42,870 nt of DNA from Chthonomonadales bacterium (lineage in GTDB: Bacteria > Armatimonadota > Chthonomonadetes > Chthonomonadales > CAJBBX01), in assembly GCA_020849275.1 (NCBI GenBank), contig JADLGO010000003.1:1-42870 (forward strand), given 5' to 3'. Below, in pieces: positions 30,433 through 41,231 of the stretch; the first letter of the stretch is position 1, and each line of letters opens with the position of its first letter. The notes under the pieces are model-generated. The model did not search any database. It was not told where the DNA came from and was given only the letters and a program-made list of their open reading frames with translations. The translations under genes were made by a program, and so were the position numbers.

Positions 30433-31218
30433 ATGATCACCGTGTCCGTCGTCAACCAGAAGGGCGGGGTCGCGAAAACGACCACGTGCGCCAACCTGGG
30501 CGCCTGCCTGGCCGCCCGCGGCTATCGGGTGCTGCTCGTGGACCTGGACCCGCAGGCCAACCTGACCCTGGGGATGGGAGCGGGCACCGCGGATCTGCCG
30601 CACGGTCTGCCCGACGTGCTGCTGGATTGGGAGAGTTGCCCTCTGTCGCCCGTGCTGCGGCGCGTGGGCGAGACGACGCTCTACGTGGCTCCGGGCGGCA
30701 TGGAGCTGGCGCGCGCGGAGGCGATGCTGCTGCCGCTGGGCGGATCGGCCTATCGGTTGCGCCACGCTCTGGAAGACCTGGCCGCCGTGCGCCCCTTCGA
30801 CTGGGTGCTGATCGACTGTCCCCCCTCGCTCGGACGGCTGACGCAGAACGCCATCGTGGCCAGCACGCACCTGCTGATCCCGACCGAGCCCAAGTTCTAC
30901 GCCTTTCAGGGGATGGACACGCTCAACCGCATGATCGTCGACCTGACGAAAGATCTGCGCTTCGGCGTGGAGTTGCTCGGGGTGCTGCTGACGATGTACG
31001 AGAAGGGCACGCGGCTGCACCGTGGCATCGCCGAGGAGATCCGCACTCGCTTCGGCCGCCGCGTCTTCGACACCGTGATCTACCGGACGGTGCGGCTGTC
31101 GGAGGCGGAGGTGGAGGGCAAGCCGATCATCGCCTTCGACCGTCGCTCGCGGGGTGCGCAGAACTACGAGGCGCTGACGGACGAGGTGATCGCGAGGGTG
31201 GGGCAGCCAGCAAAATAG
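30433..31218 (+). CDS. parA: ParA/Soj-type ATPase (solitary)
   Basis: This 261-residue protein is a ParA-family ATPase: deviant Walker A NQKGGVAKTTTCANLGACLA (lysines at 10 and 15), the DLDPQANLTLGMG motif (38 onward), Walker B-type WVLIDCPPSLG (about 120-130) and the C-terminal GVLLTMYEKGT region. These ATPases move DNA or large protein assemblies along the nucleoid, normally with a ParB partner bound to a centromere site. No ParB gene is adjacent. It has no N-terminal HTH domain, so it is of the chromosomal/Soj or orphan type rather than the P1 plasmid type. GAGGAG precedes the ATG. The DUF3467 gene and then viral packaging genes follow. Confidence 0.9.
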   Translation: MITVSVVNQKGGVAKTTTCANLGACLAARGYRVLLVDLDPQANLTLGMGAGTADLPHGLPDVLLDWESCPLSPVLRRVGETTLYVAPGGMELARAEAMLLPLGGSAYRLRHALEDLAAVRPFDWVLIDCPPSLGRLTQNAIVASTHLLIPTEPKFYAFQGMDTLNRMIVDLTKDLRFGVELLGVLLTMYEKGTRLHRGIAEEIRTRFGRRVFDTVIYRTVRLSEAEVEGKPIIAFDRRSRGAQNYEALTDEVIARVGQPAK

Positions 31219-31243
31219 TCGACATCCTTCTACATCTGCTCTA

Positions 31244-31272
31244 GTGAACCATGCGTCCCGGCGCTCTATAGT
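31244..31272 (+). promoter_or_regulatory. Possible sigma70-type promoter before the DUF3467 gene
   Basis: TATAGT at 31267-31272 matches five of six -10 consensus bases. GTGAAC at 31244-31249, with 17 nt between, is a weak -35. It lies in the 110-base gap after ParA and would start transcription about 50 bases before the GTG at 31329. Prediction from sequence only. Confidence 0.35.
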
Positions 31273-31328
31273 CGAGGGCTCCGGCCGGGCGGCTGGGCTG
31301 CCAGGCGCCAGTTCGGGGAGGTCGAGCC

Positions 31329-31610
31329 GTGGAACTCGAGGAGATGGTGCGCATTCCGGAGTACTACACGGACTCCGTGAACTTCATGACGAACCTGTAC
31401 GGCTTCACGCTGGATTTCGCGGTGATGGACGCTCAGGAGCAGCCGCCGCGCTCGCAGGTGCGCGTTCGCATGAGCCCACAGCACGCCAAGATCATGAGCC
31501 TGCTGCTGCGCAAGAACGTGCAGGAGTACGAGCGGCGCATCGGCACGATCATCCTGCCCGAGCAGCTCTACCGTGATCTGGGGATCACGGACGACATGGC
31601 CGACGAGTAG
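31329..31610 (+). CDS. DUF3467-family small protein
   Basis: This 93-residue protein matches the DUF3467 pattern: YTDSVNFMTNLYGFTLDF near the N-terminus, then a MSPQHAKIMSLLLRKNVQEYE helix and the ending typical of the family. Members are about 90 residues, widespread in bacteria and of unknown function. The GTG at 31329 has GGGGAGG about 7 nt upstream. It sits between ParA and the small terminase and is followed by a strong hairpin, so it may be transcribed separately from the packaging genes. Confidence 0.82.
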   Translation: MELEEMVRIPEYYTDSVNFMTNLYGFTLDFAVMDAQEQPPRSQVRVRMSPQHAKIMSLLLRKNVQEYERRIGTIILPEQLYRDLGITDDMADE

Positions 31611-31639
31611 CGTCCGGGCGCCGCGCGCGGGACGTTGGC

Positions 31640-31673
31640 GGGGGGCCGCCTTCCTCGTGGAAGGCGGCCCCCC
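31640..31673 (+). terminator. Perfect 15-bp hairpin after the DUF3467 gene
   Basis: The arms 31640-31654 and 31659-31673 are perfectly complementary around a TCGT loop. The hairpin lies 29 bases after the DUF3467 stop and 38 bases before the small-terminase start. No T tract follows (GCTTGCGTGT). It is likely to terminate or attenuate transcription between the ParA/DUF3467 unit and the capsid cassette. Confidence 0.6.
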
Positions 31674-31710
31674 GCTTGCGTGTGGAGCCGGGCGACGGAG
31701 GTGGGCGGGC

Positions 31711-32136
31711 ATGGGCACCGACTGGGAGCCGCGCCTGCTGGAGGCGCTGCGGCGCACGGGCAGCGTGCGGCTGGCGGCACGGGAGGCGGGCGTGGCGCCG
31801 GAGGCGGTGACGCGGCGCGAGCGGCGGCGGCCGGCATTCGGGCGCGCGGTTGCCGAGGCGATCGCCGAGGCGGTGGACGCGCTGGAGGCCGAGGCGCGGC
31901 GCCGCGCCGTGGAGGGCGTCGCCCGCCCGGTCTACTACGCGGGACAGGAGTGCGGGGAGGTGCGCCACTACAGCGACGCGCTGCTGCTGGCGCTGCTGCG
32001 GGCGGGCCGACCGGAGCGCTTCGGGCGGCCAGCGATCGGCGGGCCGGCGCAGGAGCGCGGGCTGCTTGCGGCGATGCCGACGCTGAGGGTGCGCCCGGTG
32101 GAGGCGGGCGAGGAGCAAGATGCCGACGGCGGGTAG
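31711..32136 (+). CDS. Phage small terminase-like HTH protein
   Basis: This 141-residue protein has a helix-turn-helix at about residues 5-35 (LLEALRRTGSVRLAAREAGV then AVTRRERRRPAFG), followed by long charged helices, the layout of TerS proteins that recognise viral DNA and recruit the large subunit. Its location immediately before the large terminase, with a 17-nt overlap, supports this. GGAGGTG lies 8 nt upstream of the ATG. Sequence conservation in TerS is low, so the call rests on the HTH and the gene order. Confidence 0.72.
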   Translation: MGTDWEPRLLEALRRTGSVRLAAREAGVAPEAVTRRERRRPAFGRAVAEAIAEAVDALEAEARRRAVEGVARPVYYAGQECGEVRHYSDALLLALLRAGRPERFGRPAIGGPAQERGLLAAMPTLRVRPVEAGEEQDADGG

Positions 32137-33430
32137 GCTCTGGTCGCGCGGGGCCGAGGGCGTGGAGGTCCGCTTCCACTCGGGCCAGCGACGGGCGTGG
32201 GAGAGCCGGAAGCGCTTCGTGTTCGTGGTGGCGGGGACCCAGTCCGGGAAGACTTCGTGGGGGCCGTGGTGGCTGTGGCGCGAGATCTACGGCCTGCCCG
32301 GCCACCCGGGGCGCGGGCCGGGCGACTACCTGGCCGTGACGGCGACCTACGACCTGTTCAAGCTCAAGATGCTCCCGGCGCTGCGCGAGTGCTTCGAGGA
32401 GGCGATGGGATCCGGGCGGTGGCGCGCGACCGAGCGCGCGATCGAGTTGGCGGACCCGGCGACGCGGGAGTTGCGCGGCGAGCGCGGGCGCGCGCCCTGG
32501 GGCCGCATCCTGCTGCGGTCGGCGGCGGCCGGCGCCGGGTTGGAGAGCGCGACGGCGCGGGCGGCATGGCTGGACGAGTGCGGCCAGGACGGCTTTCGGC
32601 TGGAGACCTGGGAGGCGGTGCTGCGCCGGCTCTCGCTGGCGCAGGGGCGGGCGCTGGGCACCACCACGCCCTACAACATGGGCTGGCTGAAGACGGAGGT
32701 GTTCGAGCGATGGCGCGCCGGCGATCCCCGGTTCGACGTGATCCGGTTCCACTCCACCGAGAACCCGGCGTTCCCGCGCGCGGAGTATGAGCGGGCGCGC
32801 GAGACGATGCCGGCCTGGCGCTTCCGCATGTTCTACCAGGGCGAGCTTGCCCGGCCGGAGGGGCTCGTGTACGACTGCTTCGACGAGGCGGCGCAGTCCG
32901 CGCCGGAGCGGCGGCCGCCGCCCGAGTGGCCCCGTTGGGTGGGGGTTGACTTTGGGGCGGTGAACACGGCCCTGGTCTGGGTGGCGGAGGATCTGGCCTG
33001 CGGGCGGTGCGAGGTCTACCGCGAGTCGCTGGAGGGCGGGCTGAGCACTCCAGAGCACGCCCGACGTGCGCTGGCGGAGGCTGCCGGGGTGAACGTGGCG
33101 GCCTTCGTGGGGGGAGCGCCGGGCGAGGAGCAGCAGCGGATGGACTGGGCGCGGGCGGGCGTACCGGTGCGGCGCCCGCCTGTGCGCGACGTGGAGGCCG
33201 GCATCGATCGGGTTACGGAGCTCCTGCGGACCCGGCGGCTGTTCGTGCAGCGCTCGTGCCGCGGGCTGCTGGAGGAGATGGGCTCCTACCGGCGGCGCCT
33301 GGATGCGGCGGGGCATCCGACGGACGACATCGAGGAGAGGGCGCGTTTCCACCGGCTGGACGCCCTGCGCTACGCCGTGTGCGGGATGCTCGGCGGGCGC
33401 GTGACGATGACGGAGGGATGGTTGCGATGA
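32120..33430 (+). CDS. Phage terminase large subunit
   Basis: This 436-residue protein is a DNA-packaging motor. The ATPase domain has Walker A AGTQSGKT (38-45), Walker B AAWLDECG (148-155) and the coupling motif GTTTP (180-184). The nuclease domain (RNase H fold) starts with VGVDFGAVN, where D277 is a metal ligand, and its other acidic residues lie around D402-D403 and D414 (TDDIEERARFHRLDALRYA). All expected catalytic residues are present, so packaging could be functional. It starts inside the small-terminase gene with GAGGAG a few bases upstream, and its stop overlaps the portal start (ATGA). Confidence 0.93.
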   Translation: MPTAGRLWSRGAEGVEVRFHSGQRRAWESRKRFVFVVAGTQSGKTSWGPWWLWREIYGLPGHPGRGPGDYLAVTATYDLFKLKMLPALRECFEEAMGSGRWRATERAIELADPATRELRGERGRAPWGRILLRSAAAGAGLESATARAAWLDECGQDGFRLETWEAVLRRLSLAQGRALGTTTPYNMGWLKTEVFERWRAGDPRFDVIRFHSTENPAFPRAEYERARETMPAWRFRMFYQGELARPEGLVYDCFDEAAQSAPERRPPPEWPRWVGVDFGAVNTALVWVAEDLACGRCEVYRESLEGGLSTPEHARRALAEAAGVNVAAFVGGAPGEEQQRMDWARAGVPVRRPPVRDVEAGIDRVTELLRTRRLFVQRSCRGLLEEMGSYRRRLDAAGHPTDDIEERARFHRLDALRYAVCGMLGGRVTMTEGWLR

Positions 33431-34725
33431 CGAGCGTTGCGGACCTGACCGCGCGCGAGGCGGCGCTTGGGGAGATGCGGCGGCTGGAGCGCATGCGCGC
33501 CGCCTGGCAGGCCTACTACGGCGACTCGCCGGCTCCGCTGCCGGTGCGGCCGGGCGCGCCGGACGACAACGTGCGGCTGAACTTCGCGCGCCTGATCGTG
33601 GATAAGGGTGTCTCGTTCCTCTTCGGGCGGGGCGTGGGCTTCGAGCTTGATGGCGAGGCCCGGCGCAGCGCCGCGGAGGCCTGGCTCGACCGGGTGTGGC
33701 AGGCGAACCGCAAGGACACGCTCCTGCACCGCGTCGCCGTGAACGGCGGGGTGTGCGGCCACGCCTGGGTGCGGGTCCGGGCAGGCGCGGCGCCGGGCGA
33801 GCCGCCGCGCCTGCTGGCAGTCGACCCGCAGACGGTGAGCGTGCGGTGCGCTCCGGACGACTGGGAGACTCCGGTGGAGTACCGCATCGAGTGGCACGGG
33901 GTAGACCCGCGCGACGGCGGCGCGGTGGCGTTTCGGCAGGCGATCGCGCGGGCGGAGGGGCGTGGTTGGAGCGTGGTGGACCAGGTGAGCGAGGGCGACC
34001 GGCGCGAGTGGCGCACGACGCGCGCGGAGCGGTGGCCGCACGACTGGCCGCCGCTGGTGGGCTGTCAGAACCTGCCCGCGCCCAACGAGCTCTGGGGCAT
34101 GGGCGACCTGGAGGGCGACCTGCTGGAGGTGCTGGCCGCGCTGAGCCAGGCGGTGAGCAACGTCAATCGAATCCTGCGGCTGCACGCGCACCCGAGGATA
34201 TGGACCGCCGGGTTTACTCCGGGGCCCGATTTCCGCACGGCGCCCGACGCTGTGACCCACATGCCGGCCGGGGCCACGATGCAGAGCCTGGAGATGCGCA
34301 CCGACCTGTCCTCCTCGCTGGCATTCATCGCGTCGCTGCAGGAGGCCTGGCACGAGCTCGCTCGGGTGCCGGCCGTGGCCACCGGCCGGCTGGCCGACAT
34401 CGGGCGGCTCTCCGGGGTCGCGCTGCAGATCCTCTACCAGCCCTTGCTGGAGAAGACGGAGACGAAGCGGATGCTCTACGGCGACCTGCTCGCGGAGCTG
34501 AACCGACGGCTTCTGGAGATGGGCGGATTCGGCGGCGACCGGCGCACGGCGCTGCGCTGGCCGGACATGGTGCCGGCCGACCCGCGGGCGGAGGCGGAGG
34601 CAGCGCTGCGGCACCGGGAGCTCGGGGTGAGCGAGGCGACCCTGATGGAGCGGTTGGGGTTCGACCCCGGCCTGGAGGCGAGCAAGCGCGCCGGGACGGC
34701 GCCCGAGGGCGCGGGGAGGCGGTGA
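33427..34725 (+). CDS. Phage portal protein, SPP1 gp6-like
   Basis: This 432-residue protein has the order of features of SPP1-type portals: an N-terminal helix (LGEMRRLERMRAAWQAYYG), NFARLIVDKGVSFLFG, a wing region (YRIEWHG), the NELWGMGDLEGDLLEVLAALSQAVSNVNR helix region, and RLSGVALQILYQPLLEKTETK, the conserved stem/crown motif. The dodecameric portal is the DNA entry pore of the capsid. The ATG at 33427 overlaps the terminase stop; GGAGG lies 10 nt upstream. An ATG at 33418 is possible but sits directly on that Shine-Dalgarno. The stop overlaps the next start by one base. Confidence 0.9.
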   Translation: MTSVADLTAREAALGEMRRLERMRAAWQAYYGDSPAPLPVRPGAPDDNVRLNFARLIVDKGVSFLFGRGVGFELDGEARRSAAEAWLDRVWQANRKDTLLHRVAVNGGVCGHAWVRVRAGAAPGEPPRLLAVDPQTVSVRCAPDDWETPVEYRIEWHGVDPRDGGAVAFRQAIARAEGRGWSVVDQVSEGDRREWRTTRAERWPHDWPPLVGCQNLPAPNELWGMGDLEGDLLEVLAALSQAVSNVNRILRLHAHPRIWTAGFTPGPDFRTAPDAVTHMPAGATMQSLEMRTDLSSSLAFIASLQEAWHELARVPAVATGRLADIGRLSGVALQILYQPLLEKTETKRMLYGDLLAELNRRLLEMGGFGGDRRTALRWPDMVPADPRAEAEAALRHRELGVSEATLMERLGFDPGLEASKRAGTAPEGAGRR

Positions 34726-34943
34726 TGGCGGGCGGAGACGGCTGGGATGAGTACCAGCGGATGCTGCTGGGCCGAGTGGACGAGTTGACGGCGGCAGTAC
34801 ACGACCTGCAGCGGCGCCAGGGTGAGCTGGCGGTGGCGCTCGGGCAGCTCCAGGTGAAGGCGGGCGCATGGGGCGCGGCGGCGGCGCTGCTGGCCTTCCT
34901 GTTGACCCTGGCGCCGATGCTGTTGGAGCGGGCGACGCGCTAG
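34725..34943 (+). CDS. Small coiled-coil membrane protein, XhlA-like
   Basis: This 72-residue protein has an N-terminal amphipathic coiled coil (about 12-44, RVDELTAAVHDLQRRQGELA) and one C-terminal transmembrane helix (about 47-67). That layout matches phage XhlA-like membrane proteins, which in other phages work with holin and endolysin; no endolysin is present here. It could instead anchor the particle or DNA machinery to the membrane. The ATG overlaps the portal stop by one base and GGGAGG lies 5 nt upstream, so translation is coupled. The call is by architecture only. Confidence 0.6.
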   Translation: MAGGDGWDEYQRMLLGRVDELTAAVHDLQRRQGELAVALGQLQVKAGAWGAAAALLAFLLTLAPMLLERATR

Positions 34944-35010
34944 TGACGGCGGAGCGGGCGGCCATCGGGGTCGCTGCGGCAGGGCGACTCGGGACGCGCG
35001 GGAGGCGGCG

Positions 35011-36849
35011 ATGGGCGATATGGCAAGCTGTGAGCTGGCGGTGGCCGGCTACGGGTACGGGACCAACGGCGGCTCCTGGGTAGGCGGCACGGCGGTGACC
35101 GGGCAGTTCATCGTGGACGTGAACAACCCGATCGCGCTGCCAGTTGAGCTGCCGGACGAGGAGCGGCAGCCGGCGGCGCTCTGGCAGTACGTGAACGGCG
35201 GCGTGGCCGGGCTGCTCGTGCGGGTGATGGTGCTGCGGCCCAACGACCCGCAGGCGCCGTCGTCGTTCACGCTCTGTGGGCACAGCGACCCGTTCGACAA
35301 CCCACCGATGCGAACCGTGGTGGACCTTCGTGGTCGGTGGCACTGGATGGCAGGCGAGACGCAGTTGACGAACGGCGACCTGCTGGGCCTGCATCTGGCG
35401 TACCCGACGCCGCGGGACCTGAAGGTGGCGGGGGCGGGGCAGGCCGGTGGGGCCCGCCTGCTGTCCGCGGAGTGGTCGACGGGGCCGCTCTCGGGCATGT
35501 CCACGTTCGGCTACGACCCGCTGCTTGCGTTGTTCGTGGACACGACGCGCAAGCGCTTCGAGATCGCGGCGGCGCCCGGCGCGACGGCGCGGCTGCCCTA
35601 CTTCCGGTCGGTCCCCTACTTCGTCGTGCTGGACGAAGTGCGCCAGTCGGACGGGGGGAGCCTGACGTTCACGTTCCAGGGAGTCCGGAGCACGGACACT
35701 CCGGCCGGCACGAAGGCCGACGTGGTGACGGCGCAGACGCTGGTGCTGGACCACGGCGCGATCGACCAGGTGACCTATGGCGGGGTGAGCGTTGCCCTGT
35801 CCGCGGGGGAGGCGGGCGGCGTCTTCACCTTCCTCGTCGGGCTGGACCCGACGGCGAAGGCGGCGGACCTCTACTACGCGGATCTCACGCGCGGTCAGGC
35901 GGGCGGCTCATCGGCGGCGGACGTGGCGCTGACTTGCCACGCGGTTCGCGCCGGCGGCGTACGCGGCGCGCGCCACCCCTCGGACGGCGGCGGGAACGGC
36001 GACGACCTCCGGTGGAGCCGACTCGCCATCGCCTCGAGCGGCGGCGCGCCCTCCATCGGGCGGGTGATGGTGGCGCGGCGGCCATGGGTGGGGGGCGTCT
36101 CGAGCTGGTCGGCACGCTACGAGGGGCACATGCGCCGGGCACACGTGGCGGAGGCGCTGCACGACGCGGCGGCGGGCCACTTCGCCTGCCCGCCGTGCGT
36201 GGTGTCGGTGGGCATTCCCGGCGGGCGGCTCGCGCTGGACACGAGCACCGTGACCGGCTTCCAGCGGCGCTTCGGGGCGGCGGACGGGTCGACGCCCGGC
36301 CTGCACGACCTGTGCGAGCTGCGCGGGGCAGTGGTGTTCGTGGAGGCCGGCGGGGCGGTGAACGACCTGGTGAGCGCGGCAAGCGCGGAGGGCAACCGCC
36401 CGGGGCCCGGGTTCCGGCAGACGCTTCGCGACTGCCTGGCCGCGGTCACGCTGATCGTGCGGCTGGCGATGGCCAACGGCAACGAGGTGGTGATCGCGGA
36501 CGCGCCGCCGATCACTCTGGAAGTGGGTGGCGAGGAGTGCGGCTACTGGTACCTCTCGGAGGCGCGGCGGCGCTACAACGCGGCGCTGCATGCGCTGTGC
36601 GCGGCGACCGGCGCGGTGTTCGTGTCGACGGAGGCGGCGGTGCGCGACGCGACGCCGGTGCTGTCGCACCCGGCTGCGGGGAGCCCCCGGACACTGGAGG
36701 ATCGGCTGCGGCCCGACCTTCGCCAGGACGCCGCGCACCTTGCCGCCGCGGGCGACGCGGAGGTGGCGCTCCGCATGGCGCGGGCCTACGAGGGCGCGGG
36801 CGCGGCGCCGGAGTCGCCGGGGCGGGGACGGATGTCGATCGGGCTGTGA
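35011..36849 (+). CDS. Fibre/spike-like virion protein with C-terminal SGNH-like domain
   Basis: The 612-residue protein is predicted to be beta-rich in its first 330 residues (structural or receptor-binding) and has an SGNH-hydrolase-like C-terminus at about 380-600. Block III is visible as GGAVNDL (GxND, about 447) and block V as DAAHLAAAGD (DxxH, about 573); VGIPGGRL may be block II. The block I GDS nucleophile is not obvious. SGNH esterases on phage fibres remove acetyl groups from surface polysaccharide. The next gene resembles the head-spike base of gene transfer agents, so this is a candidate head-spike fibre. GGGAGG lies 5 nt before ATG 35011. The middle part has no recognised domain. 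Confidence 0.65.
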   Translation: MGDMASCELAVAGYGYGTNGGSWVGGTAVTGQFIVDVNNPIALPVELPDEERQPAALWQYVNGGVAGLLVRVMVLRPNDPQAPSSFTLCGHSDPFDNPPMRTVVDLRGRWHWMAGETQLTNGDLLGLHLAYPTPRDLKVAGAGQAGGARLLSAEWSTGPLSGMSTFGYDPLLALFVDTTRKRFEIAAAPGATARLPYFRSVPYFVVLDEVRQSDGGSLTFTFQGVRSTDTPAGTKADVVTAQTLVLDHGAIDQVTYGGVSVALSAGEAGGVFTFLVGLDPTAKAADLYYADLTRGQAGGSSAADVALTCHAVRAGGVRGARHPSDGGGNGDDLRWSRLAIASSGGAPSIGRVMVARRPWVGGVSSWSARYEGHMRRAHVAEALHDAAAGHFACPPCVVSVGIPGGRLALDTSTVTGFQRRFGAADGSTPGLHDLCELRGAVVFVEAGGAVNDLVSAASAEGNRPGPGFRQTLRDCLAAVTLIVRLAMANGNEVVIADAPPITLEVGGEECGYWYLSEARRRYNAALHALCAATGAVFVSTEAAVRDATPVLSHPAAGSPRTLEDRLRPDLRQDAAHLAAAGDAEVALRMARAYEGAGAAPESPGRGRMSIGL

Positions 36850-36873
36850 GGCGGCTGGAGAGGAGGAGGGCCG

Positions 36874-37128
36874 ATGGGCTACGGGGGGCCGCAGGAGGAC
36901 ATGGGGCGCCCGGCGGCGCGCGCCGCGCCGGTCTCACCGGCGGACGAGGACATGGCGGAGTGGGCGCTGGCGCTCTACGTGGGCCTGGGCGGCGACGTGC
37001 GCCTGACGACGTGGCGTGGCGACACGGCCACCTTTAGCAACGTGCCGAGCGGCTCGGTGCTGCCAGTGCGGGCGCGGCGCGTGTGGTCGACGGGAACGAC
37101 GGCCGGCGAGATCGTGGCGCTGGGCTGA
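36874..37128 (+). CDS. Head-spike base protein, Rcc01079 (GTA) family-like
   Basis: This 84-residue protein has the complete core of the small spike-base family named after Rhodobacter capsulatus GTA protein Rcc01079: ALYVGLGGDVRLTTWRGDT (33-51), FSNVPSGSVLPVRARRVW (54-71) and STGTTAGEIVAL (72-83). In the R. capsulatus GTA, this protein plugs into the capsid vertices and carries the head-spike fibre that binds recipient capsule. The N-terminal 30 residues are Gly/Pro/Ala-rich and unlike the core. GAGGAGG lies 6 nt before the ATG. The gene sits between the fibre-like gene and the scaffold. Family call from recalled motif similarity, not from a search. Confidence 0.72.
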   Translation: MGYGGPQEDMGRPAARAAPVSPADEDMAEWALALYVGLGGDVRLTTWRGDTATFSNVPSGSVLPVRARRVWSTGTTAGEIVALG

Positions 37129-37153
37129 GGTGGTCGGCGCGAGGAGAGAGCGG

Positions 37154-37561
37154 ATGGATCCGGAGGAGAGGCCGCCCGCGGAGGGCGGCGGCAAGGCGCC
37201 GCGGCCGGAGGGAGAGGCATGGCGCCTGGAGCGCGAGGAGCTGCTGACGCGGCTGGAGGTGGAGCGGCACGCGCGGCGGCTCGGGCTGGTGGACGAGGAG
37301 GCGGCCTGGCGCCTGCTGGATGCGGCCGCGGTGGAGCGCGACGCCGCGGGGCGCCCGACGAACGTGGAGGCGCTGCTGCGCGAGATGGCGCGGGCGCGGC
37401 CGTGGCTGGCTGCGGCGGAGCCGCCTGGAGGGGGCGTGTCGGCGGCGAACCCGGCGGGTGGGCGCGGGGTGCGGCTGAGCCGGGACGAGATCCGGCGCAT
37501 GACGCCGGAGCAGATCAACGCCAACTGGGCGGCCGTGCAGGCCGCGCTGCAGTCCGAGTAG
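37154..37561 (+). CDS. Phage capsid scaffold-like protein
   Basis: This 135-residue acidic/helical protein precedes the major capsid gene, as scaffolds do. It has a charged helix (WRLEREELLTRLEVERHARR, 23-42), a segment VDEEAAWRLLDAA followed by AAGRPTNVEALLREM (65-79) that resembles the D-x-x-G-x-P-T-N motif seen in many siphophage scaffolds, a Gly/Pro linker, and a C-terminal helix-turn-helix (LSRDEIRRMTPEQINANWAA, 108-127) that would contact the shell. No protease domain is fused and none is encoded nearby, so assembly may be protease-free. GAGGAGA is about 9 nt upstream. Confidence 0.75.
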   Translation: MDPEERPPAEGGGKAPRPEGEAWRLEREELLTRLEVERHARRLGLVDEEAAWRLLDAAAVERDAAGRPTNVEALLREMARARPWLAAAEPPGGGVSAANPAGGRGVRLSRDEIRRMTPEQINANWAAVQAALQSE

Positions 37562-37581
37562 ACGGGCCGCACGGCGAGGGG

Positions 37582-37613
37582 CGACGGGGCGGCCGGGCGC
37601 GGCCGCCCCGTCG
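37582..37613 (+). terminator. Perfect 13-bp hairpin between scaffold and major capsid genes
   Basis: The arms 37582-37594 and 37601-37613 pair perfectly around a 6-nt loop. No T tract follows. It lies inside the capsid operon, in the 92-base gap before the major capsid gene, where it could attenuate upstream transcripts or stabilise a processed 3' end and so adjust the amount of scaffold relative to capsid protein. Confidence 0.5.
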
Positions 37614-37653
37614 GCGCAATCGGGGCCCGCGCGGACGGGAGGATGAGGGGGCA

Positions 37654-38511
37654 ATGGGTCTGGAGAGCTTCATACCGGAGGTGTGGTCGGCGCGTCTGCT
37701 GGCCAACCTGCATAAGGCGCAGGTGTACGGCCAGCCCGCGGTGACGAGCATGGACTACGACGGCGACATCCGCGAGTTCGGAGACACGGTGCGCATCAAC
37801 GCGATCGGCCCGGTGAGCGTGTCGGACTACACGCGCAACACCGACATCGACGCGCCGGAGACACTCGATGACTCGCAAACGGTGCTGGCCATCGACCAGG
37901 CGAAGTACTTCAACTTCCAGATCGACGACGCGGACCGGGCGCAGCAGCGGCCCAGGGTGATGGACGCGGCGATGGCCGAGGCGGCTTACGCCGTGTCGGA
38001 CGCGGCGGACCAGCACATCGCCGCGCTCTACAGCGCGATCGACGCGGGCAGCTTCGTGGGAAGCGACGCCAGCCCCAAGACGGGCTACGACGCCTCCGAC
38101 GTGTACGAGCTGCTGGTCGACTTGAAAGTGATCCTCGATGAGCGCAACGTGCCGACGGAGGGGCGCTTCTGCGTGATCCCGCCCTTCCTGCACGGCTACC
38201 TGCTGAAGGACGATCGGTTCGTGCGGGCGGGCACGGCGGCCACCGACCGCACTCTGCGCAACGGCGAGGTGGGCCAGGCGGCTGGCTTCCGAATGCTCAT
38301 GAGCAACAACGTGCCCTACGCGGCCGGCCCGGCCAGGTTCAAGGTGATCGCGGGCCACCCGATGGGATGGACATACGCCAGCCAGATCCGCAAAGTGGAG
38401 GCCTACCGGCCGGAGCGACGGTTCGCCGACGCAGTGAAGGGTATCCACCTGTATGGGGCGAAGGTGGTGCGCCCGACGGCGCTGGCCTGCCTGGTGATCA
38501 ACGCGACGTGA
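37654..38511 (+). CDS. Major capsid protein (HK97-fold type)
   Basis: This 285-residue protein resembles coat proteins that use a separate scaffold: an N-terminal arm (ESFIPEVWSARLLANLHKAQ), the conserved DGDIREFGDTVRINAIGPVSV strand segment, DIDAPETLDDSQTVLAIDQAKYFNFQIDDADRAQ (long loop, 59-92), a spine helix region (DAAMAEAAYAVSDAADQHIAALY), RFCVIPPFLHGYLLKDDRF and a C-terminal GFRMLMSNNVPY-type strand. Length and layout match HK97-fold coats without a cleaved delta domain. It would assemble around the portal and scaffold. The ATG at 37654 follows a GAGGGGGG stretch. Confidence 0.88.
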   Translation: MGLESFIPEVWSARLLANLHKAQVYGQPAVTSMDYDGDIREFGDTVRINAIGPVSVSDYTRNTDIDAPETLDDSQTVLAIDQAKYFNFQIDDADRAQQRPRVMDAAMAEAAYAVSDAADQHIAALYSAIDAGSFVGSDASPKTGYDASDVYELLVDLKVILDERNVPTEGRFCVIPPFLHGYLLKDDRFVRAGTAATDRTLRNGEVGQAAGFRMLMSNNVPYAAGPARFKVIAGHPMGWTYASQIRKVEAYRPERRFADAVKGIHLYGAKVVRPTALACLVINAT

Positions 38512-38516
38512 CGCGG

Positions 38517-38555
38517 CTCGCGACCCCGACCGCGTGGCGCGGTCGGGGTCGCGAG
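38517..38555 (+). terminator. Perfect 18-bp hairpin after the major capsid gene
   Basis: The arms 38517-38534 and 38538-38555 pair perfectly around a 3-nt loop, starting 5 bases after the capsid stop. This is the most stable hairpin in the cassette. There is no T tract after it, and the next gene's Shine-Dalgarno starts about 5 bases later. It may reduce read-through into the connector genes or protect the 3' end of capsid mRNA. Confidence 0.65.
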
Positions 38556-38572
38556 CGGGGAAGGAGGCCGGT

Positions 38573-39100
38573 ATGGCGCGCAGCGGGATGGCCGCGCTGA
38601 TCGCGCGGCTGCGGGGACTGGTGGGCGACCCGGCGGGCTCCGGCGCCGCGTGGACCGACGACGAGCTGGAGCAGGCGCTGGACGCGCGGCGGCGGGAGGC
38701 GCGCTATCTGGAGTTGGAGCCCATGCCGGAGCGCGCGGCTGGCGGCGCAGTGACCTACCGGCTCTACCGGGCGCCCTGCGGCGATTGGGAGGCGGACGAG
38801 GAGCTGGTGGGCGCGCGCTACGAGCCGCTGACGCCGGCAGAGAGCGACCCCCTGGCCGGGCGCTGGGCGATGGCGCAGGAGGTGCGGCCGCCGGTCCGCC
38901 TCTCCGGCAAGACCTACGACCTGTGCGGGTCGGCGGCCGACGTGCTGGAGGCGTGGGCCGCTCGCGTCAAGCTGGAGTTCGACTTCGCGGCGGGCGACCT
39001 GCGGTTCGAGCCCTCGCGGAAGGCGGCGGCGCTGCTGGAATTGGCCGCCCGCCTGCGCGGGCGGCAGCGCAGCGTGACCGCCGAGTTGCGGCGAGAGTGA
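38573..39100 (+). CDS. Phage head-tail connector (adaptor) protein
   Basis: This 175-residue protein is mostly helical with a central sheet segment (VTYRLYRAPCGDWEADEELVG). The C-terminal stretch DLCGSAADVLEAWAARVKLEFDFAAGD matches the form of siphophage head-tail adaptor proteins located after the capsid gene. Such proteins ring the portal on the outside of a filled capsid and close it or allow tail binding. AAGGAGG lies 6 nt upstream of ATG 38573. An in-frame GTG-like upstream start would run into the hairpin. Confidence 0.72.
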   Translation: MARSGMAALIARLRGLVGDPAGSGAAWTDDELEQALDARRREARYLELEPMPERAAGGAVTYRLYRAPCGDWEADEELVGARYEPLTPAESDPLAGRWAMAQEVRPPVRLSGKTYDLCGSAADVLEAWAARVKLEFDFAAGDLRFEPSRKAAALLELAARLRGRQRSVTAELRRE

Positions 39101-39113
39101 GGGGAGCGGCAGG

Positions 39114-39452
39114 ATGCTGAGCAGTGAGGACCTGGCCCGGATGCGGGCGATCATCGCGCGGGTGCTGCCGGAGGAGGCGGCGATCCTGCGGTACGACCCG
39201 CTGGCGCACCAGTGGGCCGCAGTGGCGACGCGGCCGTGCCGCGTCATCCCGAAGCGCTCCGTGACGCGCAACGCCAACGGCATGCTGGAGGGCGTGACGC
39301 TGTGGCACGTGATGCTGCCGCACGACACCGATGCGCGCGCGGGAGACCGGCTCCAGACGCCCGCGGGCACCTTCGGAGTGACCGGCACGGACGCCGGCCG
39401 GACCGACGCGCTGTCGCTGGTGGCGCAGTGCTCGCCGGTGGATCCCGCGTAG
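39114..39452 (+). CDS. Phage head-closure/stopper-like protein
   Basis: This 112-residue beta-rich protein follows the adaptor gene, as stoppers do in SPP1- and HK97-like phages. It has a short N-terminal helix (LSSEDLARMRAIIARVLPEE), then strands typical of the barrel (QWAAVATRPCRVIP, LEGVTLWHVMLPHDTD, RLQTPAGTFGVTGTD). Stoppers close the portal channel after packaging and form the tail docking surface. It is the last viral gene: the next reading frame is the ferritin-like gene. Call based on order and fold pattern. Confidence 0.6.
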   Translation: MLSSEDLARMRAIIARVLPEEAAILRYDPLAHQWAAVATRPCRVIPKRSVTRNANGMLEGVTLWHVMLPHDTDARAGDRLQTPAGTFGVTGTDAGRTDALSLVAQCSPVDPA

Positions 39453-39478
39453 GGCGCCGACCGACCCGGGCCGGCGCC
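39453..39478 (+). terminator. Weak hairpin at the end of the viral cassette
   Basis: GGCGCCG (39453-39459) can pair with CGGCGCC (39472-39478) across a 12-nt loop, directly after the stop codon of the last connector gene. The stem is short and there is no T tract, so it is only a possible terminator. Confidence 0.3.
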
Positions 39479-39593
39479 GAGGGCGGGAACCCGAGGGGCC
39501 GCGCGGTCATATTGTATGCAGGAGGCCGGCCCGCGCGAGCTCATCGGGCGCCCGACGGCCGCCGACCGTGCAGGGTGAAAAGGAGCAGACCCC

Positions 39594-40016
39594 ATGGGCA
39601 ACCACGCGCTCATCGCCGCGATGAACGAGCAGCTTTCCGCCGAATACCAGGCGATCATCCAGTACATCCAGTACTCGGCCATCGTCTCTGGGCCGCAGAG
39701 GCCGCAACTCGCGGCCTTCTTCCGCGGGGAGATCCCGGACGAGCAGAAGCACGCGCAGTACCTGGCGGACAAGGTATCGGTACTGGGCGCGACGCCGACG
39801 ACTACGGCCAAGCCGGTGCTGGTCGGCTCATCGCCGCGCGAGCTGCTGGAAAACGTGCTGGAGGGGGAGAAGCACGCCATCGCCGCCTACACGAAGCTGA
39901 TCGATCTGGCGGACGAGGCCGGGGAGGTGGGCATCCGCATCCGGATGGAGGATTTCGTTCAGGACGAGAACACGCACCGTGACGAGACCCTGAAGATCCT
40001 GGAGGGGCCCTGGTAG
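39594..40016 (+). CDS. Ferritin-like diiron protein (bacterioferritin/DPS-like)
   Basis: This 140-residue four-helix-bundle protein has two ferroxidase half-sites: E17, E50 and H53 (EQKH) in helices 1-2, and E92, E125 and H128 (ExxH in DENTH) in helices 3-4. That is the pattern of bacterioferritin-type diiron sites. It probably oxidises Fe(II) and protects against oxidative damage, or stores iron if it forms a shell. It is shorter than classical bacterioferritin (about 158 residues), and no clear haem-ligand Met is seen. AAGGAG lies 8 nt before the ATG. It follows the viral cassette by 141 bases and is probably independently transcribed. Confidence 0.82.
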   Translation: MGNHALIAAMNEQLSAEYQAIIQYIQYSAIVSGPQRPQLAAFFRGEIPDEQKHAQYLADKVSVLGATPTTTAKPVLVGSSPRELLENVLEGEKHAIAAYTKLIDLADEAGEVGIRIRMEDFVQDENTHRDETLKILEGPW

Positions 40017-40038
40017 GCCGCGCGCGGCGCCGGACGCC

Positions 40039-40078
40039 CGGCACGGCCCTCCCGCCGCCGGGCGGGAGGGCCGTGCCG
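40039..40078. terminator. 18-bp hairpin between convergent genes
   Basis: The arms 40039-40056 and 40061-40078 are perfectly complementary around a 4-nt loop, in the 75-base gap between the ferritin-like (+) and Gfo/Idh (-) stops. Position and strength indicate a shared bidirectional terminator. Confidence 0.7.
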
Positions 40079-40091
40079 CGCCGGGCGGCGG

Positions 40092-41231
40092 TCAGGCGTG
40101 CTGGGGGTCGGTGACGCGCTGCTCGCGGACGGAGGACTTGGCCCGCGAGGACTGCTGGAGCTCGGCGAGGAGGCGATCGTAGGCGGCGCGGTTTACGGGT
40201 AGCGAAACGGGCTGGCCGGAGTGGCTGGAGAGAATAAGCGAGTTGATCAGCTCGACGGCCCAGATGCCCTCCTCACCGGGCGCGATGAGCGGCTCGCCGT
40301 CCGTGATGGCGCGGCAGAAGTTGCGGGTGATGTCGGAGTGGTGCCCGCCGCCGGCGCTCACCTCGACGGGGACCTCCGCGGCCTCCGGGATGCTCCACAT
40401 CTCCCCTGCGGCGCGGCTGTGCTCGGAGATGGACGTCTTGATCTCCCACACACTCAGCCGATTTCCATGGACCACGAGCTTGCCCTTGTCGCCGCAGATC
40501 TCTAGCTGCTCGTGGCCGGGCACCTCGGTGGTGCTGGCGTAGAGATAGCCGTGCGCCCCGCTGGCATAGTCGAGCGTGGCGAAGGCCTCGTCCTCGACCT
40601 CGATGTCGTGCAGGCGCGTACGAGTGCGCCCGGTGAGGCTGGTGGGCAGTCCGCCGAGCCAGGCGAAGAGGTCGAGGAAGTGCGGCGCCTGGTTGATGAG
40701 CACGCCGCCGCCCTCGCCGGACCAGGTGGCGCGCCACCCTCCGGAGTCGTAGTAGGCCTGCGAGCGGTACCAGCCCATCACGAGCGAGGTGCGGTAGATG
40801 TCGCCGAGGCGGCCCTCCTGGACGACGCGGTGGGCCGCCTGCCACTGTCCCATCGAGCGAAGCTGGTACATGACGCCGAAGACGCAGCCCGACTCGCGCG
40901 CGGCGCGGATCATTTCGTCGGCCGCGGCGACGGTGACGGCGATGGGCTTCTCGGAAAGGACGTGGATCCCTCGTCGGAAGGCCTCGACCGCGATCGGCGG
41001 GTGGAAGTAGTGGGGCGTGGCGACGATTACGGCGTCGACGAGGCCGCTGTCGAGCAGTTGCTCGGCCCGTTCGAAGCCGGGCACGCCGAAGTCCTCGGCC
41101 TTCTGCCGGGCGACCTCGGGGACGATGTCGCAGACGGCGGTGAGGGTGGTCTCTTCCATCTTCGCGCAGTTGCGGCAGTGGCCCGAGCCCATGCCGCCCG
41201 TCCCGATCACGCCGATGCGCACTTTGCTCAT
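40092..41231 (-). CDS. Gfo/Idh/MocA-family NAD(P)-dependent oxidoreductase
   Basis: This 379-residue protein has the Rossmann NAD(P) motif GVIGTGGMGSGH (7-18) and the family's EKP motif (94-96 in HVLSEKPIAVT), followed by the mixed alpha/beta substrate domain with EGGGVLINQAPHFLDLFAWLGG, whose H-x-x-D matches the catalytic pair of the family. These enzymes oxidise sugars, inositols or related polyols. It is monocistronic in this window. The start at 41231 follows AGGAA by about 9 nt. The C-terminus ends in a charged tail (SSRAKSSVREQRV) not typical of the family. Substrate unknown. Confidence 0.87.
   Translation of the reverse strand: MSKVRIGVIGTGGMGSGHCRNCAKMEETTLTAVCDIVPEVARQKAEDFGVPGFERAEQLLDSGLVDAVIVATPHYFHPPIAVEAFRRGIHVLSEKPIAVTVAAADEMIRAARESGCVFGVMYQLRSMGQWQAAHRVVQEGRLGDIYRTSLVMGWYRSQAYYDSGGWRATWSGEGGGVLINQAPHFLDLFAWLGGLPTSLTGRTRTRLHDIEVEDEAFATLDYASGAHGYLYASTTEVPGHEQLEICGDKGKLVVHGNRLSVWEIKTSISEHSRAAGEMWSIPEAAEVPVEVSAGGGHHSDITRNFCRAITDGEPLIAPGEEGIWAVELINSLILSSHSGQPVSLPVNRAAYDRLLAELQQSSRAKSSVREQRVTDPQHA

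Follow-up and report, generated by a model that had tools for sequence, protein, structure and literature searches.

Why would a bacterium keep an intact set of phage head and packaging genes with no tail genes beside them? The question is raised by a cassette at positions 31711-39452 of the window, by which we mean the whole stretch of DNA analysed: contig C3 (42,870 bases) of the 4.8 Mb draft genome, in 73 contigs, of a Chthonomonadales bacterium (G000). The best explanation overall is probably that a former long-tailed phage was domesticated down to its head by a bacterial family. Domestication of the cassette by its host, taken by itself, is very likely. Four tail HMMs and a tail-tube profile detected no conserved tail in the carriers, the cassette genes are under purifying selection where this is testable, and from site and trees the cassette looks vertically inherited.

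From terminase to stopper

Open reading frame (ORF) calling gave ten co-directional frames on the forward strand of this region, all of them intact. An earlier note, made from the DNA letters, had described a packaging-and-capsid set without a tail, and the ORFs and the domain typing with Pfam and PHROGs hidden Markov models (HMMs) agree; some starts were refined from homologues. The first frame encodes the terminase small subunit TerS (31711-32136; phrog_4044, E-value 1.7e-32). The large subunit TerL (32120-33430; phrog_2, 3.2e-25) was also placed by a motif alignment and a tree. Aligned with a tailed prophage, it retains the Walker motifs A (GTQSGKTS) and B (WLDE) and the nuclease motifs GVDFG, GGAPxE and FHRLDA, all common to the two proteins, as had been read from the letters. 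Next come a portal protein of the SPP1 gp6 type (33427-34725; PF05133, SPP1_portal, 7.7e-20) and a small membrane protein (34725-34943), in which an N-terminal coiled-coil-like part and a C-terminal hydrophobic segment were recognised by sequence inspection and which has zero homologues among 17,206 ORFs. A 612-amino-acid protein (35011-36849) ends in an SGNH/GDSL hydrolase domain (PF13472, 8.5e-7). It had been labelled a fibre; its identity is corrected here to an SGNH/GDSL protein, while a role as head fibre or decoration is still predicted as probable. An 84-amino-acid fibre-like protein (36874-37128; phrog_12296, tail fibre, 6.7e-17), a scaffold (37154-37561; phrog_206, 0.0067) and an HK97-type major capsid protein (37654-38511; phrog_267, 6e-71; Phage_capsid_4, 3.5e-13) follow. 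The overlapping or tightly coupled starts of the earlier description hold for TerL and portal, whose frames are joined by an ATGA overlap, but the coupling is not uniformly tight: 67 bp separate the SGNH gene from the frame in front of it, and spacers of 92 and 61 bp flank the capsid gene.

Neither of the last two frames is assigned by the Pfam and PHROGs HMMs (best E 0.09). The final one (39114-39452) was identified as a stopper, or head-closure protein, of the SPP1 gp16 family by profile and predicted fold. A profile search reaches SPP1 gp16 (E 0.003), and the AlphaFold model (pLDDT 91.3) has phage neck and stopper chains as its top Foldseek matches, including the lambda neck, SPP1 gp16, PBSX XkdH and a chain of the gene transfer agent (GTA) virion 6tba; against 7z4w it scores Z 9.6. 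The frame before it (38573-39100) was assigned an SPP1 gp15-like role as portal adaptor, again by predicted fold and profile. Its model (pLDDT 89.5) best matches the phiCD508 portal adaptor 9gb5_I (Z 10.7, root-mean-square deviation 4.4, 88 aligned), which is on top in a profile search as well (E 0.14). With adaptor and stopper identified, the cassette spans terminase to stopper and thus holds the full parts list for a closed DNA-filled head. In SPP1, gp15 and gp16 join the portal after packaging, gp16 locks the DNA inside, and the gp6-gp15-gp16 structure comes from capsids that were filled with DNA but had no tails (PMC9701221). The cassette shares the portal family, the adaptor and the stopper with this head; SPP1 goes on to join a tail, whereas the cassette stops at the stopper.

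Chromosomal genes restart 142 bp past the end of the stopper gene, and flank typing agrees with the earlier statement that they resume after the last connector. Upstream lie genes for URO-D, a histidine kinase, ParA and a DUF3467 protein, and downstream those for ferritin-like, GFO/IDH and SLBB proteins; the eighth typed gene is a cyclase gene. None of these eight genes is an integrase, an AlpA-type regulator or a primase, and the window has no tRNA gene. Tail, integrase, replication and lysis genes were found at the locus neither in the window nor in six relatives (see below), and it does not qualify as an intact prophage; small membrane protein genes are present, without a Pfam or PHROG lysis match. 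Like encapsulins, the cassette provides an HK97-fold shell kept by the host, and the window has a ferritin-like gene downstream. Unlike encapsulins, it has portal, terminase, scaffold, adaptor and stopper. An encapsulin with ferritin cargo was rejected because the ferritin gene is not beside the cassette in relatives and because portal and terminase are present.

The same site in related genomes

The gene in front of the cassette encodes a DUF3467 protein of 93 amino acids (31329-31610, forward strand; PF11950, 8e-11) that is conserved across the family. It directly precedes a head module of the same kind, which we call type A, in G004, G006, G007, G009, G010 and G011, from three further genera of the family. 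With the window genome this gives a fixed DUF3467-linked site in four genera, and every type A carrier seen has DUF3467 just ahead of its head module. The relatives are mostly draft genomes; one from the same order consists of one contig of 3.4 Mb. The portal-fibre-scaffold-capsid-adaptor-stopper module of the six is 39-63% identical to the window proteins, with the scaffold at 52-59%, and the capsid stands at about 60% across the four genera. An eighth copy lies on the IMG/VR contig L354 (IMGVR_UViG_3300045117_000484), whose DUF3467 is 90% identical to that of G004; filed as a virus, L354 is a piece of chromosome that carries a type A cassette and DUF3467. The 84-amino-acid fibre-like protein is kept in the type A cassettes of G004, G007, G010 and L354 (55-59% identity in relatives). 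Upstream of DUF3467 the window has a ParA-type gene (30433-31218) without an adjacent parB, and a parA-parB pair divergently adjoins DUF3467 in G004, G007 and G010. The prepilin of one relative carries the motif ILAAILFPVFAQAR, which we take to be of Armatimonadota type and from which the host phylum was inferred.

The contigs of G009 and G010 end at the module, so that the 3' limit is visible in G004, G006, G007 and G011. In these four the contig continues, and the module stops after the stopper and gives way to differing chromosomal genes. The order of genes and the 3' limit at the DUF3467 site are therefore shared, which the earlier note had proposed as a check. It had also named a contig mis-join at about 39.45 kb as a possible flaw; this is unlikely, since the last cassette gene is the same in all four. 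A fresh prophage deletion is ruled out, as six further genomes and a metagenomic contig share the architecture. Of the family members searched, none has tail genes at this position.

In the capsid tree the seven chromosomal proteins group as a single clade (SH-aLRT 89). G004, G010 and L354 carry the relatives' own TerL between the capsid and adaptor genes, and G009 and G011 have it elsewhere, at a locus of its own. Among the five relatives whose copy is intact, this TerL branches in the same order as the capsid. This TerL lineage was not found in the window genome, where TerL is of viral type and adjoins L228 in the tree (99). Both observations point to a replaced terminase, the window TerL having been acquired separately from that of the relatives. 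G011, G014 and G030 have stand-alone TerL genes whose chromosomal neighbours are unrelated (L158:4309-5763, L162:13011-14537 and L161:5647-7275).

Selection was estimated as dN/dS by the NG86 method in the testable genus g7 (dS 0.11-0.35). The ratios are well below 1 for portal (0.10-0.17), scaffold (0.18-0.21), capsid (0.08-0.17), adaptor (0.14-0.21) and stopper (0.13-0.23). They bear on the possibility that the locus is a slowly decaying, defective prophage of which the head operon is the last part still intact. Integrase, replication, lysis and tail genes are gone, and one relative (G006) has a broken TerL, both of which would fit decay. However, the limits are identical and the structural genes intact over four genera at about 60% capsid identity, dN/dS is 0.08-0.23 in g7, and a second, unrelated module has been reduced to the same parts (type B, below). 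Slow decay is strongly disfavoured, and we give it very little credence. It had been argued that decay is unlikely as no frame is broken. The frames are indeed intact, but this is insufficient alone. The view of a retained, DNA-packaging, tailless system is upheld by the shared gene order and 3' limit, by dN/dS below 1 and by the lack of a conserved tail elsewhere.

Tail genes in phages and carriers

The head gene order of the cassette is that of tailed phages. Aeribacillus phage AP45 (Kamchatkavirus) has a 57.7% identical capsid and an identical head gene order, and the IMG/VR relatives L237, L285, L316 and L335 share this order. Unlike the cassette, all five carry on from the stopper into tail completion, tail tube and tape measure genes within a few kb. 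The nearest tailed relative with an integrase is a prophage of the same head order in G017, which belongs to the same bacterial order but a different family, at another genomic position.

A tail-tube profile was built from eight proteins of the tailed relatives. It has no match in any of the twelve family genomes and matches the G017 prophage and one G019 locus. Within the family, the tail completion family PF11367 gives no match, the tape measure family PF10145 gives nothing above the cut-off, and TMP_3 exceeds it in two unrelated elements only. These two were rejected as the tail, one being a small integrase-bearing element (G009) and the other a contractile prophage (G010), both absent from other carriers. 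The former (L351, G009:C39) has an integrase-like gene and one tape-measure-like protein without other recognisable tail genes. Sheath matches are confined to G000, G007 and G010, with none in G004, G006, G009 and G011. In G000 the sheath belongs to a separate locus (G000:C44, L216/L217, about 33-55 kb) with LysM, gpV-like and baseplate-like genes, which by its gene content looks like an extracellular contractile injection system (eCIS). It was rejected as a tail for the heads on account of these neighbours and of the four carriers that have no sheath. A portal scan of the viral contigs gave no match. The search for tail genes elsewhere in the assembly, which the earlier note had called for, thus found no conserved tail.

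The tail might still lie at another locus and be too divergent to recognise, and the cassette would then be only the head locus of an ordinary GTA. According to the literature, the GTA particle consists of a DNA-filled capsid and a tail joined to it, and the genes for it are frequently distributed among several loci (PMC11841831). In G009 and G011 TerL has come to lie apart from the module, and the stopper, a docking protein for long tails, is retained. On the other hand, the tube profile, two tape-measure families and the tail-completion family give no conserved tail locus in the carriers, although the tube profile does detect the tailed G017 prophage, and the three genomes with sheath matches include G000, where the match is in the eCIS-like locus. 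We consider a hidden tail unlikely. Like RcGTA and CcGTA, which are viriforms, the cassette is a host-kept, vertical descendant of a caudoviricete with partly dispersed genes. Its descent from a tailed dsDNA phage is seen in the homology of TerL, portal, capsid, adaptor and stopper, and its vertical inheritance under purifying selection in the fixed site, the capsid clade, the matching TerL branching and the dN/dS of g7. Unlike those GTAs, it has no tail genes at the locus, where the structural cluster ends after the stopper, and no conserved tube, tape measure or completion gene in the genome; its head genes are unrelated to theirs and belong to another phylum.

Tails could also be borrowed. 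Capsid-forming phage-inducible chromosomal islands (cf-PICIs) are mobile, helper-dependent satellites that make their own heads and take tails from a helper phage; they are reported to combine packaging and head genes with no tail, the same gene logic as here (PMC10803314). A tailed sibling prophage exists in the same order. Yet the eight flanking genes that were typed include no mobility genes (integrase, AlpA or primase), a single site shared by four genera and backed by congruent trees is not a mobile pattern, and the carriers are without a conserved helper. The satellite that the earlier note had allowed for is unsupported, because of these flanks and of an inheritance that looks vertical, and we think it very unlikely. 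As the cassette lacks both the tail of GTAs and the mobility genes of cf-PICIs, it was filed as GTA-like and not as a GTA.

A second head module and possible roles

Besides type A there is an unrelated tailless head module, here called type B. Its carriers are four further genera of the family, a single genus in a second family and two genera in a third. Type B comprises a phrog_113 portal, a maturation protease, a phrog_1005 capsid and connector-like proteins, and its capsid is 71-75% identical across the three families. Viral relatives of this capsid are nearly absent (one 3.3 kb contig at 60%). Type B lies behind DUF3467 in families f1 and f2, and in G002, G003 and G005 TerL is in front of DUF3467. 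The capsids of the two types were not found together at chromosomal cassette loci; the one genome with both is G017, where type A is represented by the tailed prophage. A protein of about 70 amino acids is common to type A and type B cassettes and occurs in 0 of 123 viral loci. An SGNH protein also follows the type B locus in G012. The shared position suggests that the head module was replaced in the same DUF3467 slot, or the two types may have been recruited next to DUF3467 independently. Their TerL proteins are not close to each other, and the idea that TerL was kept through a module swap was dropped, as viral relatives are closer for type A TerL (48-61%) than for type B TerL (about 36%). 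For adaptor and stopper, no homology across the two types was established (hhalign 37% and 3%), and a search that would equate the window membrane protein with the type B coiled-coil membrane protein gave no match. A DinB-type DNA polymerase gene is lodged in type B cassettes of two families (L116:11197-12480, L115:11530-12750, L198:7747-8967 and L199:3396-4655), and three of these four contain an NAD-epimerase gene on the opposite strand.

A strong GC hairpin (31638-31675, forward strand; dG -43.3 kcal/mol, z -7.2) lies 35 nt before TerS. Ten genomes, with type A or type B, have a strong hairpin of this kind some 20-80 nt ahead of the cassette's first gene (dG -17 to -43, z -3.6 to -7.2); in G006 the upstream hairpin is the sole one of its class in 20 kb around the cassette, and in G005 it is beside the portal gene though DUF3467 is about 0.5 kb off. 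In the Caulobacter GTA, a terminator with controlled read-through has been shown (PMC11150451). By analogy, a similar function of the upstream hairpin is a reasonable proposal, and a plain terminator of DUF3467 would be the simple alternative. Two further strong hairpins bracket the capsid gene, at 37580-37615 (16-bp stem with one mismatch) and 38516-38556 (18-bp perfect stem), and possibly serve as mRNA stabilisers or processing sites. A scan for consensus sigma-70 promoters over 31100-40200 found none, a result that is uninformative at this GC content.

We propose that scaffold and capsid would assemble on the portal, that the terminase would pump host DNA into the head, and that adaptor and stopper would then seal the channel. 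The product would be closed capsids filled with DNA and lacking tails, like those that SPP1 forms when no tails are made. The SGNH and fibre-like proteins would decorate the head, and control would probably be by read-through or anti-termination at the hairpin that separates DUF3467 from the first gene. On the SPP1 analogy, sealed DNA-filled capsids are the product we would rather expect. The tail of a GTA is thought to be the route of packaged DNA into the recipient. For the cassette, the most likely use would be a GTA-like, DNA-carrying particle kept by the host and delivered independently of a tail, for example by opening near a recipient able to take up free DNA. That gene transfer is the purpose of the particle is plausible, at a little less than an even chance.

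A domesticated capsid could instead have a role other than transfer, such as interference with related infecting phages or the storage or export of DNA. A tailless particle leaves delivery to another cell unexplained, and surplus head and packaging proteins could poison the assembly of related tailed phages in the order. But a full packaging and sealing set exceeds the needs of interference, and the type B capsid, nearly without viral relatives, has no matching target phage. A non-transfer role seems quite unlikely to us.

Several points weigh against a phage domesticated down to its head. The cassette is known from its genes, and particles, packaged DNA and expression are predictions from them. 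The stopper also docks tails, so its retention would be equally expected for a particle with an unrecognised or borrowed tail. The absence of a tail rests on a limited HMM set and mostly draft genomes, and a lysis gene was not recognised. Pairs with the window genome are near saturation (dS about 0.6-1.3), which makes their omega of 0.22-0.63 indicative only. The G006 TerL (L160:5182-6705, G006:C73) is in two pieces by a stop or frameshift, due to decay or to an assembly error, with the G009 and G011 copies intact.

No description of such a locus was found in the largely non-subscription literature on Armatimonadota GTAs, DUF3467, tailless GTAs and Armatimonadetes prophages. Tentatively, these loci might form a new class of host-owned, head-only systems for sealed DNA capsids across an order, in which the head module was exchanged at least once and DUF3467, the hairpin and the protein of about 70 amino acids persist as host-side parts for control and delivery. 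Viral collections hold such chromosomal loci as viruses, and L354 is a warning in this respect. DUF3467 directly upstream of a portal gene offers a marker for finding such systems in this under-studied phylum. Phage-derived machinery would then be swappable while its genomic slot stays. A conserved and selected head-only locus would mean that these bacteria profit from DNA-filled capsids that have no tail, or that some route of delivery has escaped notice.

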